Virus record (IMG/VR): IMGVR_UViG_3300035204_001582
Span: 1 to 29,909 of that record
Reading direction: 5' to 3' (one strand)
DNA length: 29,909 nt
Source: a virus
The position numbers and the translations under genes were made by a program. The number at the start of each line of letters is the position of its first letter. Within the stretch, counting starts at the first letter, position 1. Below, piece by piece: positions 6,001-23,561 of this stretch. The notes beneath the pieces were generated by a model. It searched no databases, was not told the origin of the DNA, and saw nothing but the letters and a program-made list of their open reading frames with translations.

Positions 6001-7335
6001 GAGCAACACAGCTTAGGAGGAGTAGCTGGTCTAGCGGCGATCGGCGGGCTGGCTGCGTATGGCGCGAGAAGGAAACCTACGGAAGCAGAAAAGAAAGCTG
6101 AAGAACGCCAACGGAAGATGTTGGATAAGCATAGGGGCCTAATGGACGACGCAAGAGCCAGAGGTCTAACCCCGGGAACCACACAGACAGATAGGCAATT
6201 TAATGTCGCTAAGGGCATAAGAACTACCGGTAGTTCTGCTAAGGTAAATCTCGCAAACGCATTTTTATACAACGATCCAATGTTCGCTTCCGCCTTCGCT
6301 GGTAAAACACATGGGCAACTGGGCAAAGGTATGTTCTCCATTAGTAAAAGCGAGGGAAGTAAATTCGACATAGACAGAAGACTATCGAATAAAGCTCTAA
6401 CAGATCCAGATAATCCTCGTAATCAAATCAGAATTGAAAAAGAAAAAGCTTTATGGGATTTCGAGAAGAGCGAAGCTAGTCGCTATCAGTCTCATAGAAA
6501 AAGTATAGATAAATGGAGGGAACAAAAGAAAGACAGAATGAAGGCTGCGTACATAGCTGCTGGAACTTCTTTGGCTACGGGATGGTTAAGCGGCGAAGGT
6601 TCTGGGTTTAGTGGCGACTTTTCTGGAGGCAAAGGAGGCAACGTAGGGGGCAAATTGTGGAAGGGCGGCAAGAAAGGGTGGAAGAATTTTAAATCTGGAA
6701 AATGGTGGGAATCTCGCCCGACATGGATGGGAGGAAAAGGTCGAATAAAGCCCGGTTACGGAAAGAAAATGGGATTTAGAAATCCTGATGACTTACACGG
6801 ATTAATGTCTGATAATGGCTTCATGAAAGGTAGCGGCAGCTATAATTATAAAGCCTATGCACAGGACCATGGAGGCTTAAACTGGAAGAAACTCAGAGGC
6901 TGGGCTCGAAGGGCTCGAGGAGGGTATACTCAAGATGACATACCTGCTCTTTTAACGGGCGGAGAATACGTAATAAACAGAGACGCCGTAAGCAGATACG
7001 GTAGGCAATTTTTTGAAGATATCAATAGCGGACGATCCACAGGAGTTCAAGGATATAATAAGGGTGGTTTCGTAACTAAGAGGGGGCCCGCTGGATCTCC
7101 GGCAAACTCAGCAGCTTTAGGTAATCAAAATAATAACGTAAACGTGACGGTTAATATCGATCAGGCTGGAGGAATCAGTTCAACTATCTCTGGGGGAGGA
7201 ATGGGCGAGAAGGAAGGAAGAAACTTCGGAGAGCTTATTAAGAACCAAGTAATGAAAGTAATCGTTGAGCAAAGAAGACAAGGCGGAGTTCTTTCTCCAG
7301 CGATGCTAAGAAATGATGTTAGGACGAGCGGCTAA
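1..7335 (+). CDS. Tail tape measure protein (5' end outside window)
   Basis: Tape measure protein, which sets siphovirus tail length and fills the tail tube. The frame is open from base 1 (codons GCC GCA AAA GCA...), so the ATG at 133 is internal and the true start lies upstream; at least 2,444 residues are present. Seen: long Ala/Lys/Glu/Gln-rich helical and coiled-coil stretches (for example nt 5160-5250), a Gly/Ala-rich hydrophobic segment at nt 610-690 of the kind that may insert into membranes, and Gly-rich C-terminal parts. Two copies of a motif of the form ARGG...DD(V/I)PA.L..GE(F/Y)VI...A(V)..YGR.FF..(L/I)N lie at nt 5857-5994 and 6913-7044; similar motifs occur near the C-termini of other phage tape measures. 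The stop codon overlaps the stop of the convergent gene by a few bases. Identity rests on size, composition and the adjacent tail-tip genes. Confidence 0.9.
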   Translation, partial: AAKAAGDAHDEGLRANTAASQKHADQKRIFESSKHSGDAAYYKNMKAFNAAGGTGAMSAADVDAGLASRGMGGMAGKTISEKRQALQRKLDEEVRIVTERTKAARVDMNAAKAQMNEQKALTKAKGDERRAAEEAARHAKQAAADNKKQNKGMRGAANFIGKNAFGAQMMLTTGAGIARGMVSEDNQTAQGAIQGAETFAQFTAMGAMFGPWGAAAGAAAGAMAGLGQAMDKMSDPMPALEKSLAGVTEKLNRAKGAGMDYLKALEAQGKVLDGAEVTGDDLEKSQKAVSDAFKELPADLRSRFAGVVGDSEKIKKIFGEMTQEMAKRQKEMQAVVANQKVIESGKGGWWTKQWRKRVSDSRDDFFADDAGGQAQMEMMAGSVFRSMDTEKMKGAAGQQRLEDLQNAMSNMTQEGRGTGGVDDLVEAMKNFGASEKQLKQVKEIASRNADEGRAMAEEMMKGVVDIRKHWKNAPARERAAKAARDATEAHAKSLRDIATLRKRLNNAMSVHMQIMKKAVETEMKLAHNRQKFIRDMGVMRLSGARDVAKPFLGERESIDWETQIKGRQLQNTQLTQISSAIQKSMKDGFKEANKLLDSTGKSLVARSEKAATERTTESRKERDAQKQGQLQKELMPILQNYMEEMRKNSTSSEVNRKKLVADLTGAIQRSTGNEGPAAGTAALVIASKLHEIQGDLGNRLAQILQETNMQRIQQEEQAKYQKLALEVQERLEKLGGAKEFVAEAGNYGWSKNFDKQTKLLEQIYSTTGTARTGGMGAGNVDRGRNSAMLLEGLINDLKLRGTGKDKGNMLGSGAFGPLGGRAVAGRALDIKEQIAMYRKMTELELGGALGKETGTEDLEKSFKAAEDDAGKTAADQIAAQFKFQDMPQEVERLRVQADLLNEIMSSHTDQYFKNNEEAFMNALQKSGLNAKNLADIENKGIAATVKSTEVSIGAQDRFTGELITAGSTNSSMIANKNWAGFKALYQLLGKGEQLEVLTALENKWKAQTDTMRARGASLKEGRSGESVDDFVLDKNFFGHTGNLRFQSGVGTLSALGSGVGNTGGFDSIVDYMAQNRKAGERGHELAAAMPGVQGGLLGTGRGGWNVNPQHDRGQASGGRGWHVEVSDAQFADMTAEQRAKATVEFQAKLQAEKSLQAFANLSKIQDHIRTGQRSGRISRTGQSYDVDKPFDQFDDDGALLNKHTKGARGFIGGLGKIGSYRLPKPGETPLMFNQTSGGTDADADRMGFASALAGREFDMPIAGKARLHHKWGGAFSDTNRAKMQMMVQQQMGFNLQSKKIVDQMFGKGAFEQLRTGKTGAGTVFKADAMGGGFSTATGRTLTGSQMQQLQMAAGNVKQFTRSGLLTGDKRFSGETGSYLMNLAQESGHGTREDLALDQISGLKGVGFRHDKAESHILKNWLDTTAQGNKTLFILLQESQKQWAKENIATGKAENILKDNTTRLSHKAKRDQKYYNDNIKLLQAVTWSAHYKNLAKKGQMHGTAGMSQTHKNIALTGFDALSTQGQKKALQSLDPDLQKQFLAGLSKDDAAKYAHLLRNPMEAQDLTQWQAAERHVAKMKPGETPSAYMQRINPASALGGLMIGDEYSATAPDLKSRDASRQKYVNDLKKLVNKSEMALSPEQARLLEGRGLDIKDGNLSFLQDGRLTSQPYNTVTSALTNRLGGIGQQQSALDKIIAYKEANRTKHTWGTAASLTFGGQAGKDRQAKIDAEQKQIDEWKKQKKELEKESIGLSGSLKALAKFGEMTERMRKQNDNAKALAQQQAALLELDEDEKGNAEKRKKILDDIIVLKQEAADRQWKLARNQLDMQLADPTKFANEKAAAVRNTTNLAIRSGNYDFFEDTMAEIKESWHYGTMEMDRDVNKLFTNMAGTFRTGVKNAFKDAITGTKDLKEAFGGLFQALSDQVLDTIMEMATNRLLSGLMSGIGQGRKFARGGEVTGGTGTRDDVPARLMAGEFVIRKSAVNKYGRDFFANLNKGATEQHSLGGVAGLAAIGGLAAYGARRKPTEAEKKAEERQRKMLDKHRGLMDDARARGLTPGTTQTDRQFNVAKGIRTTGSSAKVNLANAFLYNDPMFASAFAGKTHGQLGKGMFSISKSEGSKFDIDRRLSNKALTDPDNPRNQIRIEKEKALWDFEKSEASRYQSHRKSIDKWREQKKDRMKAAYIAAGTSLATGWLSGEGSGFSGDFSGGKGGNVGGKLWKGGKKGWKNFKSGKWWESRPTWMGGKGRIKPGYGKKMGFRNPDDLHGLMSDNGFMKGSGSYNYKAYAQDHGGLNWKKLRGWARRARGGYTQDDIPALLTGGEYVINRDAVSRYGRQFFEDINSGRSTGVQGYNKGGFVTKRGPAGSPANSAALGNQNNNVNVTVNIDQAGGISSTISGGGMGEKEGRNFGELIKNQVMKVIVEQRRQGGVLSPAMLRNDVRTSG
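637..660 (+). repeat. Tandem 12-nt repeat inside tape measure gene
   Basis: Two exact copies of GGCGCAGCAGCA, coding for Gly-Ala-Ala-Ala twice in the hydrophobic Gly/Ala segment of the tape measure protein. It is in frame and probably reflects local duplication. Confidence 0.7.
5857..7044 (+). repeat. Duplicated C-terminal tape-measure motif (copies 5857-5994 and 6913-7044)
   Basis: The protein sequence contains the same ~45-residue unit twice, about 350 residues apart. Shared residues include ARGG, DD(V/I)PA, L..GE(F/Y)VI, YGR.FF and N. The two copies are diverged at DNA level, so this is an old intragenic duplication. The unit resembles the conserved GEFVI..SAV..YG element near the C-terminus of many phage tape measure proteins, which usually carry one copy. 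Confidence 0.75.
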
Positions 7336-18569: not shown

Positions 18570-19757
18570 TCAAGCTTTTTCTAGTATCCAATAATGCTCA
18601 GATTCTTCCCAAAATTCTTTGGAATCTATAACGGGTTGAATTGGGCATTTCGCTATATTTTCAACCGGCGCGCTATAAAAGGAGGAGTCCTTGGATGCAT
18701 AACAGAATTCTCCTTTAATGGAGAAAGTGTTACTTCTAAAGTAGAGCTTTTCAATATCTTTTCCATCTAACTCTTTAATGGATTCTTTGGTTGGTAATTC
18801 TATTGGATGTATTTTTCCAAAATCTAAGAATTTAAGTTTTATATCATCTAGGTCTTCGCCCTCTTTATCTGACATAATTAAGAGGTTTACTCCCAACTCT
18901 TTTATCGTGGTTAAGTAATCTCCATTAGTATGCTCGTCTACTATGTAAACAAATTCTCTGATATTTTTCTTTAACGAGCTTACTAGTCCCGCGTTTATCT
19001 CTTTGTTAGTTACTATAGAGCACGGGCCTCTCACTAACTGCTGGGTCATGGATTTTTCGTTAAAGTCTAAGTCCATTCTAATTATTAGTGAGTCAATATT
19101 TAGAGCGTCTGTGTTTTCCATCCAGCTTTCTGGTATTAGTTCTACTTTCTTGCGGTTAAATTTTGGTCCCATATATAAGGTCTTATACGGAAAACTAAAG
19201 TCTAAATCTAAAAGTTCCGCTACGTTCCGAGCGATGTCTTCTGGTCTAATCTTATTGATAGTTTTGGGCGACTCTATGTTTGAGTAGGAAGGGTGTTCCC
19301 CCTCCGCTCGTTCGGGTTCCAATAGTCTGACTCTATTTTTTTTGCTCCAATATGGGCCGCACTCAGTTGGGTGCATTATGTTATAAAGCGCTACGATCTT
19401 TTTATCGTATCCAGAAGCAATATGCACTGCACAGCTATCCGTCCCTAGGTGAAGTACGGAGTTTTTTATAAGATATGCCATCTGGTTAATGGTCGTCCTG
19501 CCTCTCAGGTCGTAAGTGCCGGGGACATGGCGCTCTTCTCTTGAACCCAGTTGCATTACGTTAATCCTGTTTTTAGTAAGAGACGGCTCTAGTAAGTCTA
19601 ATACATCTTTCCAATATTCATAATTTTTACTTTCTTTGCTGTAGGGTTGAAAGGTAATATATTTAGCCTGTGAAGCTAAAGGGAAAAAGGCTTCCATTAT
19701 ATATGGCTTATCTATCTTGAGACCAGTGTTTAATGCGTAGCTTTCTAGTAAATGCAT
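18570..19757 (-). CDS. Glycosyltransferase family 9 (heptosyltransferase)-like protein with unknown C-terminal extension
   Basis: A 395-residue protein. Residues ~30-185 resemble the C-terminal, nucleotide-sugar-binding half of GT9 heptosyltransferases: ITFQPYS, NVMQLGS, DLRGRTTINQMAYLIKNS, HLGTDSCAVHIASGYDKKIVALYN (103-126) and CGPYW. The N-terminal acceptor-binding half of classical GT9 enzymes is absent, so catalysis is uncertain. Residues ~190-395 are a second region of unknown fold, possibly a degenerate second domain that carries SLIIRMDLDFNE and ends HYWILEKA. It is followed 2 nt upstream by the small membrane protein gene, and the two are probably co-transcribed. It may act on sugars of the host surface or virion (inference). 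Confidence 0.65.
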   Translation of the reverse strand: MHLLESYALNTGLKIDKPYIMEAFFPLASQAKYITFQPYSKESKNYEYWKDVLDLLEPSLTKNRINVMQLGSREERHVPGTYDLRGRTTINQMAYLIKNSVLHLGTDSCAVHIASGYDKKIVALYNIMHPTECGPYWSKKNRVRLLEPERAEGEHPSYSNIESPKTINKIRPEDIARNVAELLDLDFSFPYKTLYMGPKFNRKKVELIPESWMENTDALNIDSLIIRMDLDFNEKSMTQQLVRGPCSIVTNKEINAGLVSSLKKNIREFVYIVDEHTNGDYLTTIKELGVNLLIMSDKEGEDLDDIKLKFLDFGKIHPIELPTKESIKELDGKDIEKLYFRSNTFSIKGEFCYASKDSSFYSAPVENIAKCPIQPVIDSKEFWEESEHYWILEKA

Positions 19758-20108: not shown

Positions 20109-20516
20109 TTACTTAACATGAAATAAATTAATATCAAATTCAAGAGATAAATCAAGCGAGGAGTCGTCTTTATCATAAAAGTCTCTAAAAATTATATCTT
20201 TGACTCCATAAGATGCTATTGTTTTCAGGCAATCGTTGCAAGGCAACAATGTTACTGCTAGGAAGGAGCACTCCCCCGGAGAAACATATCTGAGGGCGTT
20301 AATTTCTGCATGAATAACCCTTTTTCGTCGTTCGTCTCGGTTAGACCAGTCTATGTTAATTCCGGGGGGAGCCCCATTGTACCCTAGTCCAGCAACACTG
20401 TTGTCCTTCCTCATCGCGCAAGCCCCTACTTTTACGTAGGGATCTTCACTGCGAAGAGAGGCAACTTCTGCTAGCCTAAGGGCGTACTCTCTCCAGTTGA
20501 TTCTTCCGCTGTGCAT
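20109..20516 (-). CDS. dCMP deaminase (cytidine/deoxycytidylate deaminase family)
   Basis: A zinc-dependent deaminase, most likely converting dCMP to dUMP for dTTP synthesis. The 135 residues contain the zinc and catalytic motif HAE at 69-71 and PCNDC at 92-96 (ligands H69, C93, C96; proton shuttle E71). The N-terminal W..YALRLAEVASLRSEDPYVKVGACA is the usual dCMP-deaminase start, as is GYNGAPPG. It is short compared with T4 gpcd (193 residues), and the allosteric zinc insert is reduced or absent. The only available Met start lies 46 nt inside the upstream gene and has no clear ribosome binding site, so translation is probably coupled to it. It fits the phage's nucleotide block with NrdA/NrdB and dNMP kinase. 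Confidence 0.9.
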   Translation of the reverse strand: MHSGRINWREYALRLAEVASLRSEDPYVKVGACAMRKDNSVAGLGYNGAPPGINIDWSNRDERRKRVIHAEINALRYVSPGECSFLAVTLLPCNDCLKTIASYGVKDIIFRDFYDKDDSSLDLSLEFDINLFHVK

Positions 20517-20779
20517 TGATTTTCGCTACGGGGAGACTCTTCCTCAAGGAGGACGCTCTGGCACGATTGTACAGGCATTTGATAAACAAGCTCCGGTCTT
20601 CCCGTGTTATTCATAACCTTGTCTACCACTTTTAGTTCTCCGCTCTGTGAAGCAGATTTAATTTTATTTCTTAGGGAAGACGCACACAGTTTTCCTCTTT
20701 GGGTCTCTAGTAAGTTCTTGAAAGTGAACTTAGATTGAGGCCAGTCAACTGCAATTTTAGGTCTACCCTTCTTGCTCAT
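20471..20779 (-). CDS. Small winged-helix-like DNA-binding protein
   Basis: About 102 residues from the ATG at 20779 (MSKKGRPKIAVDWP). The N-terminal region reads GRPK...DWP...FTFKNL......LCASSLRNKIKSASQSGELKVVDKVMNNTGRPELVYQM, a helix-turn-helix followed by a beta wing ending in GRP.LVY, as in small phage transcription regulators. The C-terminus is Ser/Glu-rich and overlaps the dCMP deaminase gene by 46 nt. In-frame starts also exist at 20791 (ATG) and 20797 (GTG). A sigma70-like promoter places the transcript start near 20791, which favours the 20779 ATG. First gene of the leftward operon and divergent from 20858, it could be the local regulator (inference). Confidence 0.6.
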   Translation of the reverse strand: MSKKGRPKIAVDWPQSKFTFKNLLETQRGKLCASSLRNKIKSASQSGELKVVDKVMNNTGRPELVYQMPVQSCQSVLLEEESPRSENQCTAEESTGESTPLG

Positions 20780-20797
20780 GTATTGTTGCATGGACAC

Positions 20798-20826
20798 ATC
20801 TTAGTACTTATCCAAAAAAATATCAA
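20798..20826 (-). promoter_or_regulatory. Sigma70-like promoter for the leftward nucleotide/glycosyl operon
   Basis: On the minus strand, TTGATA (plus 20821-20826) and TAAGAT (plus 20798-20803) are separated by exactly 17 nt, giving 5/6 and 4/6 matches to the host -35 and -10 consensus. The predicted start near 20791 leaves a leader of about 12 nt to the ATG at 20779. Confidence 0.55.
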
Positions 20827-20857
20827 GTTTTTTTTCTAAAAAGGAGTATCATAAAAT

Positions 20858-21259
20858 ATGACCATTTTGGACGCAACAAGCCTACTATTCGGTTGGTTCA
20901 AGGATAACGACTCCTTCGAATCGTCAAAAGATTTCTCTAAATTAGTATTAGTTACTGATAACCCCCAAAGGGATAAGGCGGCAGTTATTTTAGCTTTAGA
21001 GAATTTACAAGAATCTGAAATTCTTAAAAAGAAAGAGCTAGACGAAAAAGTTTATTGGATACTAAACAAACCTTTTGAAACATATGAACAAACCGTTAAC
21101 GTCTCGCCTGTCCTTGCGGCTTCTATAGCTAAAGTTGTAAATGATTATTGTGAGTATTTAGAAGATCAAACTGAAATGGTAGACCCTACTAATATAAAAG
21201 AAAAGGATATTCAAAATATGTTGTATATCTGCACAAAGTTTTTAGAAGATAACTCTTGA
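20858..21259 (+). CDS. Small phage protein of unknown function
   Basis: A 133-residue protein preceded by a strong AAAAAGGAG ribosome binding site 11 nt before the ATG. No family is recognised. The first ~70 residues (LFGWFKDNDSFESSKDFSKLVLVT ... RDKAAVILALENLQESEILKKKELDEKVYWILNKP) read like a winged helix: helices, then a K.LDEKVYWIL beta wing. The rest is helical and acidic, ending IQNMLYICTKFLEDNS. It begins the rightward block, divergent from the DNA-binding protein at 20471. A structural or adaptor role via a winged helix is possible but unproven. Its stop codon lies within the -35 region of the candidate RNA promoter. Confidence 0.65.
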   Translation: MTILDATSLLFGWFKDNDSFESSKDFSKLVLVTDNPQRDKAAVILALENLQESEILKKKELDEKVYWILNKPFETYEQTVNVSPVLAASIAKVVNDYCEYLEDQTEMVDPTNIKEKDIQNMLYICTKFLEDNS

Positions 21260-21284
21260 CTTAGATCTGGTCAAAGGGTACTTT
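21256..21284 (+). promoter_or_regulatory. Sigma70-like promoter upstream of the candidate structured RNA
   Basis: TTGACT (21256-21261, 5/6 match) and TACTTT (21279-21284, matching T1, A2 and T6) are separated by 17 nt. The predicted start is near 21291, just before the conserved-looking AAAGGTGAAAGTCC. The weak -10 limits confidence. Confidence 0.4.
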
Positions 21285-21289
21285 CTTTT

Positions 21290-21647
21290 CTAAAGGTGAA
21301 AGTCCTTTTTATCCTGCTGAGAGTCATCAGATAAGGTTTTCCCAAGACAAGCCGAAGTATAGTAGGGGGACGGATTGGTCTGCCGTCGCATCAAGGGTGA
21401 CTTCACTTCATACAGGTGATAAAAAAACTCACGGTTAGTTACCGTGGCAATGCCCCGGCGTGTTGTGGTTAGTCGTTGTAACGGAGGTTTTAAGCACAGT
21501 TCCTCCTCCCAATGTGGCAGACGATTTCAGTTGTAAGGCTGATGTTTGTATGTGTCCCTGAATGTCCCATCAGAAAAATCACAGGGCCTCAGAAGGTGAA
21601 GGACATATAGTAATGACATAACCCCTCTCTAGGGGTTTTTGTCGTTA
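21290..21647 (+). ncRNA. Candidate structured non-coding RNA (~350 nt), family not recognised
   Basis: About 500 bases between two genes have no credible ORF. Within 21290-21647 there are many consistent helices: a possible closing helix pairs GTCCTT (21302-21307) with AAGGAC (21599-21604). Local hairpins include CTG/CAG plus TTTTAT/ATAAGG (21307-21336), GACGG/CCGTC (21369-21387), CACGGT/ACCGTG (21430-21446) and GGAGG/CCTCC (about 21483-21507). An H-type pseudoknot joins CTGATG/CATCAG (21539-21544, 21568-21573) with CCCTG/CAGGG (21556-21560, 21582-21586). A promoter precedes it and a strong hairpin with a T-run ends it. It looks richer in G+C than flanking DNA. I could not match it to tmRNA, RNase P RNA, 6S, SRP RNA, group I/II introns or known riboswitches. 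An antisense or 5'-leader role for the FkbM gene remains possible. Confidence 0.6.
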
Positions 21648-21650
21648 TTT
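21611..21650 (+). terminator. Rho-independent terminator-like hairpin ending the candidate RNA
   Basis: AACCCCT-CTCT-AGGGGTT (21620-21637) forms a perfect 7-bp stem followed by TTT. An outer 8-bp extension pairs TAATGACA (21611-21618) with TGTCGTTA (21640-21647, one G-T pair). The short T-run with the extended stem suggests a terminator or processing/stability element. Confidence 0.65.
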
Positions 21651-21657
21651 CCTAAAA

Positions 21658-21677
21658 GGTGATATACATATCTCACC
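21658..21677. promoter_or_regulatory. Short inverted repeat GGTGA...TCACC upstream of the methyltransferase gene
   Basis: GGTGA (21658-21662) pairs with TCACC (21673-21677), with an inner ATA/TAT pairing, giving a small hairpin or operator-like dyad in the AT-rich leader between the candidate RNA terminator and the 21766 gene. Confidence 0.3.
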
Positions 21678-21739
21678 AAAAAGCTGGGCGTTACTAAAAC
21701 GTTTAAAAATAGATAGACAAGAAAATTTATTAAAATATA

Positions 21740-21747
21740 TATAAATA
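21740..21747 (+). promoter_or_regulatory. T4-like late promoter element (TATAAATA)
   Basis: An exact TATAAATA lies in the AT-rich leader 18 nt before the ATG at 21766, inside TATATATAAATATAAAG. T4 late promoters use this octamer with the gp55 sigma factor and no -35 element. This phage encodes a sigma-like protein at 22992, which makes the match plausible, but the DNA here is AT-rich enough for chance. Confidence 0.35.
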
Positions 21748-21765
21748 TAAAGTGGTACGTTTTTT

Positions 21766-22422
21766 ATGCATGAAACATTATCTAAATTAAAGAATCTTGG
21801 ATTCAATCCTTCTAACATTTTAGACATAGGAGCTTATCATGGAAAATGGGCAGAAATGGCTAAAAACATTTTCCCAAATTCAAGGATAACCTTGATAGAA
21901 CCGATTCAGTACGAAGAACTCAAAAGACTTACAGAGTGGAATTTTTCCTGTAAACATATCCTTCTACACGAAGACGTAAGGGAGGTTAATTGGTATGAAA
22001 TGAGAAATAGTGGAGACTCAATATTCAAAGAAACAACTTACCATTTTCAAAATTGCGCACCGCAAAGAAAAACGACAACCACATTAGATATTGAATTTGC
22101 TAATCATTTTTATACTGGACCAGAATTGGTTAAAATAGACTGTCAAGGGGCGGAGATTTCCATACTGAAAGGTGGAAAGAATATTATTAATAAAGCGGAG
22201 GTCATTATACTAGAAATGCCATTTTTCGGTAGATGGAACGAAGGAGCACCCACATTTGCAGAATACATAGGCTATATGGATAGCATAGGATTTGAGCCGT
22301 TTGACATAGCCGAATACCATAAACATGAAAATGTTATCTTTCAAGTAGATTTTGCTTTTATTAGAAAGGGTCATAGGTTATACTTGGAGTTTCAGAGTAA
22401 AATTTCTGATATGGGGAAATAA
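21766..22422 (+). CDS. FkbM-family SAM-dependent methyltransferase
   Basis: A 218-residue Rossmann-fold methyltransferase of the FkbM type, which usually O-methylates sugars or small molecules. Motif I is ILDIGAYHGKW (residues ~18-28), an acidic end of strand 2 is TLIEPI, and VKIDCQGAEISILKGG (about 122-137) is the FkbM hallmark (D.EG.E..L.G-type, here with CQGAE). It ends with a beta-rich tail (FQVDFAFIRKG). It starts 18 nt after a TATAAATA element and lacks an obvious Shine-Dalgarno. The next gene begins 1 nt after its stop. With glycosyltransferases and a 2OG oxygenase in the region, its target may be a glycan (inference). Confidence 0.88.
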   Translation: MHETLSKLKNLGFNPSNILDIGAYHGKWAEMAKNIFPNSRITLIEPIQYEELKRLTEWNFSCKHILLHEDVREVNWYEMRNSGDSIFKETTYHFQNCAPQRKTTTTLDIEFANHFYTGPELVKIDCQGAEISILKGGKNIINKAEVIILEMPFFGRWNEGAPTFAEYIGYMDSIGFEPFDIAEYHKHENVIFQVDFAFIRKGHRLYLEFQSKISDMGK

Positions 22423-22423
22423 A

Positions 22424-23026
22424 ATGTCTGATAACATAATAATAGGACTTAGTGGATATGCAGGTTCAGGTAAGGATTTGTTTTATAAATTAATTAGTAA
22501 TAAAATTAATATTAAAAGATACGCCTTAGCAGATGAACTCAAGTTAGATATTAGAGATCAAATTAAAAAAACTCATGATATAGACATTTTGACTTGCTCC
22601 AGAGAGGAAAAGGACTCCATAAGACATTTATTAGTAGAATACGGAACAACGAAGAGGGAGATAACTAATGGTAGATATTGGATAGACAAACTGAATGAAA
22701 AAATTTCACCAATTAAAGAACATGTATGCATAACTGATGTGAGGTACGCCCATTACGAAAAAGACGAAGCTCACTGGATAAAGGAGGAGCTCGGGGGAGT
22801 CCTTGTCTGGATAGATCAATACAGGGTAGACGTCAACGAAGGAGCGAGGGTAATGAATACTGCACCCAACGAAGAAGAAGCAGTTAACGGGCCGAAAATC
22901 AGAGCATGCGCAGATTACGTAATAGAGTGGGAATATTTAGAAGATAAAAGTTTGCTACATCACCACGTAGATGGATTCCTAACATGGTTAAATGGCAGAG
23001 AGAAATACCGACGAACAGCTTATTAG
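22424..23026 (+). CDS. Deoxynucleoside monophosphate kinase-like P-loop NTPase
   Basis: A 200-residue P-loop kinase with Walker A G-Y-A-G-S-G-K-D at residues 11-18 right after the N-terminal strand NIIIGLS, as in T4 gp1 and other dNMP/adenylate-kinase-fold enzymes. Further features are YALADELKLDIRDQ (substrate-binding helix), a YGTTKRE.....YWI segment, ITDVRYAHYEKDEAHWIKEELGGVLVWID (Walker B-like aspartate and catalytic strand), and an ADYVIEW strand near the end. The ATG at 22424 is preferred over the earlier in-frame one at 22352, which lies inside the FkbM gene. It probably phosphorylates dNMPs for phage DNA synthesis. Its 3' end overlaps the sigma gene by 35 nt. Confidence 0.75.
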   Translation: MSDNIIIGLSGYAGSGKDLFYKLISNKINIKRYALADELKLDIRDQIKKTHDIDILTCSREEKDSIRHLLVEYGTTKREITNGRYWIDKLNEKISPIKEHVCITDVRYAHYEKDEAHWIKEELGGVLVWIDQYRVDVNEGARVMNTAPNEEEAVNGPKIRACADYVIEWEYLEDKSLLHHHVDGFLTWLNGREKYRRTAY

Positions 23027-23561
23027 TCGAATTCAAACAAAGCAGTGCGATACAAGCATTAAGGAACTTATAAACAGACATTCTGATCTGTTTTATTCTA
23101 TCTGTAATAAGACCTCTCCCATTGTACTAAGGCAAGAAGTCTACAGAGATAAACATTTTGTAATATATAAAGCGGCGACCTCATTCAAGTCGTCCAAGAA
23201 AGTAAAATTCTCCACATGGTTAGGAAACATAACGAAATACCATTGCTTAAATTATACAAAAAAAGAATCCAAATACATAGAGTCAGATGAAGCGACAAAG
23301 ACCTTTTTCTTTAATAGCGTATCAGCGGAACAATACCAAAAGAAGATACTTAATGAAAAAATAGATCATATTTTTAGTTTACTTTCGACGCTCAGGGATA
23401 AAAGAATAGTTGAAATTTTTAAGTTGAGATACCTGAGCCCCGAAAAACTTACTTGGAAAAAGATTGCCAAAGAATTCAAGCTAACCCCGCAAACTATAAT
23501 TACCCTGCACTCTAAAGGGAGAAATTTTCTCAAAAATAAACTTGACGCACAGCCGGATTGA
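22992..23561 (+). CDS. Phage RNA polymerase sigma factor (sigma-70 family, ECF-like)
   Basis: A 189-residue sigma factor. Region 2 spans residues ~6-92: DEQLISRIQ, IKELINRHSDLFYSICNK, then YKAATSFKSSKKVKFSTWLGNITKYHCLNYTKK, matching the -10-recognition helix (FSTW). Region 4 is at ~134-184: LRDKRIVEIFKLRYLSPEKLTWKKIAKEFKLTPQTIITLHSKGRNFLKNKL, with the helix-turn-helix. There is no region 1 or long region 3, so it is ECF-sized. It likely redirects host RNA polymerase to phage promoters. The start lies 35 nt inside the dNMP kinase gene, suggesting coupling. Candidate target sites are the TATAAATA/TATAATA elements noted elsewhere (inference). Confidence 0.85.
   Translation: MAERNTDEQLISRIQTKQCDTSIKELINRHSDLFYSICNKTSPIVLRQEVYRDKHFVIYKAATSFKSSKKVKFSTWLGNITKYHCLNYTKKESKYIESDEATKTFFFNSVSAEQYQKKILNEKIDHIFSLLSTLRDKRIVEIFKLRYLSPEKLTWKKIAKEFKLTPQTIITLHSKGRNFLKNKLDAQPD

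Follow-up and report, generated by a model that had tools for sequence, protein, structure and literature searches.

GOLLD is a large pseudoknotted RNA of bacteria, prophages and phages, which is often longer than 800 nt and located near tRNA islands (PMC12286853). ROOL, an RNA of phages and prophages, has a complex pseudoknotted fold, and one example is 659 nt long (PMC12286853). OLE RNAs are ~600 nt in length and occur in Gram-positive extremophiles (PMC9723947). Large structured phage RNAs are few, and the functions of GOLLD and ROOL are still open. The locus analyzed here lies at 21290-21647 on the plus strand of a 29.9-kb IMG/VR record (29,909 nt, referred to as the window), between up133 (20858-21259, plus strand, 133 aa) and an FkbM methyltransferase gene (21766-22422). 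Comparison with its homologues shows that it is a real conserved structured RNA gene of ~350 nt, termed class 1, with a probable transcript running from ~21290 to the terminator, both ends being predicted. We infer the expression and the mechanism of this RNA.

An earlier note on this DNA had proposed a novel structured non-coding RNA in a phage, with no plausible protein in the region and no match by eye to known families. In the window, no ORF of at least 60 aa overlapped 21290-21644, and a 60-aa ORF on the minus strand (21645-21827) only touches the edge of the RNA region. All reading frames were broken by stop codons across 30 homologues and none was conserved, so the region is non-coding in the homologues as well as in the window. 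In Rfam 15, no family matched at gathering scores (GOLLD, ROOL, OLE, HEARO, tmRNA, RNase P, 6S, introns and riboswitches among them), and even at E values up to 10 only eukaryotic and viral chance matches well below the cut-offs were returned. Together with the covarying homologues described below, these results support the proposal of a novel structured non-coding RNA in a phage.

Two specific identities were rejected. For tmRNA, neither a tRNA-like domain nor a tag ORF was found with ARAGORN and Rfam, and neither search reported a tmRNA in the window, whereas both detect tmRNA elsewhere in related phages. These tmRNA genes are located at L120:3676-4080 (minus strand), L133:18881-19294 (plus), L146:10910-11327 (plus) and L168:1169-1569 (minus), with Rfam scores of 124-146 bits; the tags in L120, L133 and L146 are unusually long (21-31 aa) and similar to one another according to ARAGORN. 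For a retron- or telomerase-like template RNA, no PF00078 reverse transcriptase was found in 21 contigs, which are possibly incomplete, and the controls were positive.

Relatives were retrieved with three baits, namely the nearby dCMP deaminase gene, sequence patterns of the RNA core and the neighboring dNMK (deoxynucleotide kinase). Class 1 homologues were identified by nhmmer and the covariance models R1 and R2 in ~33 distinct IMG/VR phage contigs of up to 178 kb. The closest homologues share ~70% identity and an invariant CCCCGGCGTGTTGTGGT, and the distant members vary even within CCCCGGCGTGTTGTGGT. L203:5678-5853, on a 124-kb contig without up133, was a weak but significant relative (44.8 bits). 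L107 and L096, the latter a match in a Bacteroidales bin, were dismissed as chance matches. Among 50,697 annotated phage records (isolates), no credible match was found to class 1 or to the class 2 RNA described below. The sequences place class 1 in a lineage of large uncultured phages.

The minimum free energy of the RNA is -117.8 kcal/mol (z = -3.0), and none of 100 dinucleotide shuffles was equally low. A z-score of -3.0 alone proves little, and by itself it is not decisive against a chance structure in conserved intergenic DNA with no functional RNA. The pairs were judged by their changes among homologues. In an alignment of 13 sequences made with MAFFT, independently of the covariance model, both-sided changes were observed in 23 of 32 pairs. 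In an alignment of 30 sequences, which was fitted to R1 and hence biased towards it, 95.3% of the cells were paired and 24 of 31 pairs showed double changes. In the latter alignment, pair-keeping double changes occurred in 247 cells; shuffles gave 75, and slid controls, which preserve relatedness, gave 14-34. These shuffle and slide statistics include no phylogeny model. The compensatory changes thus exceeded both kinds of control, and the MAFFT alignment, made without model fitting, agreed with the fitted one. The core helices covary strongly, and a chance structure is refuted by the covariation and can be regarded as vanishingly improbable. The long-range pairings, which are specific to each phage, also argue against it.

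All features described in the following are on the plus strand. The RNA begins with hairpin P1 (AAAGG/CCUUU, 21292-21308), and most homologues form the same hairpin with other letters, such as AAAACGG/CCGUUU in L082 and AAAGAT/ATCTTT in L006. It is followed by hairpin P2 (CCU-CUGA/UCAG-AGG, 21313-21336), which carries a conserved GAGAG loop in the RNAalifold consensus, and by P3 (21341-21397), a 5' multibranch domain that is closed by CCC/GGG and contains inner hairpins. This domain is an RNAalifold prediction from 22 homologues, and its closing helix is wholly altered yet still paired in L007, L082, L091 and L106. Hairpin P4 (21403-21419) presents the loop UUCAUACAG. A closing helix between 21302-21307 and 21599-21604, suggested as possible in the earlier note, is perfect only in the window, and the homologues do not conserve it. 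In them, 21304-21308 forms the 3' arm of a local hairpin, and the partner of 21601-21609 is 21549-21557.

The core matched by R1 and R2 spans 21422-21592 (161.9 bits) and is supported by the structure counts. It contains hairpin P5 (21429-21447) with a conserved UARUU loop and double changes in 6 of 7 pairs, the short hairpin P6 (CC-CGG-CGUG-UUG-U-GG, 21453-21468), and the three-way junction P7 (21471-21526) with P7a, whose loop UUUUAAGCACAGUU is invariant, and P7b. For P6 the variants were found by eye only (CGG/CCG and GCC/GGC in L104, CAG/UUG in L105). P7 showed double changes in 6 of 7 pairs with 99% of the cells paired, and all 5 pairs of hairpin P8 (21527-21542) showed double changes. 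Hairpin P9 (21557-21586) covaries as well, and its loop CCC (21566-21568) may form a further pseudoknot with GGG (21584-21586), for which compensating variants were noticed by eye in L006, L095 and L197. A core pairing GCAAUGC/GUGUUGU was discarded, because L003 and L090 contradict it.

The 3' domain contains strand X (21543-21557), which pairs both with the P4 loop, forming a pseudoknot, and with a strand at 21601-21609 within the first copy of a direct repeat. In permutation tests, the P4 loop and strand X from the same phage paired with an average of -4.9 kcal/mol compared with -3.2 kcal/mol for permuted partners, and the values for strand X and the copy-1 strand were -10.5 and -7.2 kcal/mol, respectively; in neither case was any of 20,000 permutations as good. 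The repeat is 20-22 nt long, with copy 1 (21587-21608) just before the terminator hairpin and copy 2 (21651-21671) just after it, at the end of the conserved module. In the close pairs L084/L211, L003/L090 and L174/L191, copy 2 coincides with the end of the module. The two copies are alike within a phage and different between phages (own score 9.3, permuted 6.1, 0 of 20,000 permutations as high). No additional copies were found in seven contigs, and for the purine-rich half no partner or guide was found in the RNA.

Many up133-bearing relatives that have no class 1 carry another conserved structured RNA, termed class 2, which is unrelated to class 1. In these relatives it occupies the same gap of ~500 nt between up133 and dNMK, directly upstream of dNMK. 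Class 2 loci include L172:6501-6993, L168:6400-6986, L193:6547-7001 and, on the minus strand, L002:5292-5694 and L008:5222-5698. A profile search gave 30 loci, including duplicates of a single contig, and a sequence pattern gave 22. No Rfam family matched class 2, and no credible match was found in plasmids. RNAalifold predicted 53 pairs from 16 sequences, 24 of them with double changes. Class 2 starts near GTTCTTTGT, which may resemble an rRNA boxA. Since no clear terminator follows it, class 2 may be a processing product of a longer transcript. It also has two co-changing repeat copies, ~260 nt apart (two copies of GGCTGGCAGACA in L182 and of GGACGGTAGC in L008). No contig among those searched, which are mostly fragments rather than whole genomes, carried both classes. 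In L213 the gap between up133 and dNMK (6598-7000) is similar in length, has neither class and contains a repeated TTTTAA(A)GGGAAGT; it perhaps encodes a third RNA type.

Both classes contain a strand that is complementary to a pair of co-evolving copies. This feature, the invariance of the unpaired core sequences and the position of copy 2 at the end of the module would be expected of a self-processing, ribozyme-like RNA, in which strand X and the two copies mark equivalent sites of cleavage or exchange, so that the 3' segment would be cut off, exchanged or circularized. However, strand X shows weak pairing with copy 2 (P ~0.03), which may do no more than reflect the likeness of the two copies, and no self-splicing or self-cleaving Rfam family matches. 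Self-processing is for these reasons considered quite improbable.

The upstream promoter claimed in the earlier note was upheld in its -35 element and less so in its -10. TTGACT (21256-21261), which overlaps the up133 stop codon, is followed by a 17-nt spacer and a weak -10, TACTTT (21279-21284). In 26 of 30 homologues, TTGAC lies at a constant distance from the core, with 0.037 expected per window. In one homologue alignment TTGAC was invariant, and so was the TA of the -10, which is otherwise degenerate. Generic promoter scans, including a generic sigma-70 scan, were not above chance. With regard to the early/middle timing named in the earlier note, this host-type -35 element was the sole element seen. 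A gene at 22992-23561 has weak similarity to sigma-70 region 2 and is conserved in most relatives; judged by this similarity, a phage with such a gene may alter host transcription. At the other end, a terminator-like hairpin with a T-rich tail was located at 21610-21647 (hairpin proper 21620-21637), which agrees with the terminator hairpin described before. In most class 1 members the RNA is followed by a GC-rich hairpin whose 3' side is T-rich, and some distant homologues (L203 and L207) have no clear T tract.

Alternatively, the RNA could be a cis-acting leader (a riboswitch, attenuator or antiterminator) that controls read-through past the terminator into downstream nucleotide-metabolism genes. 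dNMK lies downstream in the same direction in about half of the homologues, class 2 is directly upstream of dNMK, and strand X is able to pair with the bases adjoining the 5' arm of the terminator, all of which suit a leader. Class 1, however, does not hold a fixed position upstream of a regulated set of genes. It is located after up133 or after dUTPase, and the gene on its 3' side differs: besides dNMK, it is a membrane-protein gene in L006, L007, L082 and L091, FkbM in the window, and a convergent gene in L003, L009, L083, L085 and L088. The form of the RNA and the hairpin are kept whatever the downstream gene. Since the neighbors differ and are partly convergent, class 1 is better described as a free-standing gene, and a leader is unlikely. 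The kept RNA sequence amid changing neighbors after up133 or dUTPase favors action in trans. In the window, sugar-related genes, namely a glycosyltransferase family 9 gene (18570-19757) and the FkbM methyltransferase gene, adjoin the nucleotide-metabolism genes.

The protein encoded by up133 is a predicted winged-helix protein and a candidate partner of the RNA. Its AlphaFold2 model is winged-helix-like (pLDDT 93.6), with weak fold matches. Class 1 RNA possibly forms a ribonucleoprotein with up133. Of the class 1 contigs checked, L203 alone did not carry the gene, and a strict partnership initially appeared from its presence in 8 of 8 class 1 contigs compared with 0 of 2 contigs counted as RNA-less. 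This association was weakened when the latter two, L002 and L008, from which up133 is absent, were found to carry class 2, and a strict partnership was abandoned. In L217, up133 is followed by a gap of just 129 nt, and the 142-kb contig gave no R2 match. Because up133 is missing from L002, L008 and L203, and L217 gave no class 1 match, a direct partnership is offered only as a hypothesis; the link may reflect shared gene order alone.

The locus adjoins a point at which gene blocks diverge (20471-20860 in the window, left block on the minus strand, right block on the plus strand), which is a possible replication origin. ColE1 RNA II, the replication primer, is a structured transcript some hundreds of nt long that acts at an origin. 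By analogy, the class 1 transcript or its DNA hybrid could prime or direct initiation, with the repeats as part of the origin. The minimum of the cumulative GC skew is near the locus in G005, G028, G030, G001, G007 and roughly in G004 (~6 of 9 contigs), which speaks for an origin RNA, but not in G025, G026 and G027, and such a skew can be obtained from gene direction alone. Nor is the AT-rich stretch after copy 2 constant, since it is absent where the next gene is convergent. The spacing of the repeats varies from 56 to 67 bp (~260 in class 2), and therefore no helical phasing is indicated. Class 1 showed no sequence similarity to ColE1 RNA II and lies at the skew minimum in some contigs only. 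We regard an origin RNA as an improbable function of class 1.

Instead, we propose, with about even confidence, that class 1 is a stable, trans-acting pseudoknotted RNA gene with its own promoter, which functions in a ribonucleoprotein, perhaps with up133. Host RNA polymerase would transcribe the RNA from this promoter, and the RNA would fold into the 5' multibranch domain, the core with its invariant loop and the 3' domain, in which strand X would join the P4 loop to the copy-1 strand. Possibly with the winged-helix protein up133, the RNA would make up its half of a ribonucleoprotein and serve in trans a step needed by the phages of this lineage, for which some relatives would substitute the unrelated class 2 RNA. 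Copy 2 would take part in a processing or conformational step, either by replacing copy 1 or by being recognized like it. More tentatively, one lineage with two interchangeable, unrelated RNAs at one locus could represent a new phage ribonucleoprotein or ribozyme, and strand X with the two copies could point to a shared, undescribed mechanism of processing or strand exchange. Non-homologous replacement suggests a function needed by the phage, and the two classes provide two independent handles on it.

A literature search returned no description of class 1 RNA, and one beyond the literature searched or Rfam 15 is possible. By these comparisons class 1 is a new RNA class with no known relative, and its precedents are found in the category of large phage RNAs of unknown function. 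Like tmRNA, it would be a stable structured RNA carried by phages, and some of these phages have real tmRNA genes elsewhere; Rfam and ARAGORN detect tmRNA in those other regions and not at the present locus. The resemblance to OLE lies in a conserved structured RNA in a ribonucleoprotein, which for class 1 is a prediction; the OLE RNAs differ in their length and hosts (PMC9723947) and have no sequence match to class 1. With GOLLD it shares being a large structured phage RNA with pseudoknots and a function that is not known (PMC12286853), and it differs in its length of ~350 nt compared with often more than 800 nt, in the lack of an Rfam match and in its setting, GOLLD being found by tRNA islands (PMC12286853). 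ROOL is likewise a phage RNA with a complex pseudoknotted fold and a function that is not known (PMC12286853), whereas class 1 has no Rfam match, is shorter than the 659-nt ROOL example and nearly always keeps the adjoining protein gene. To these RNAs the present locus adds a compact, well-supported RNA class, together with an unrelated second class that takes its place at this locus in relatives.
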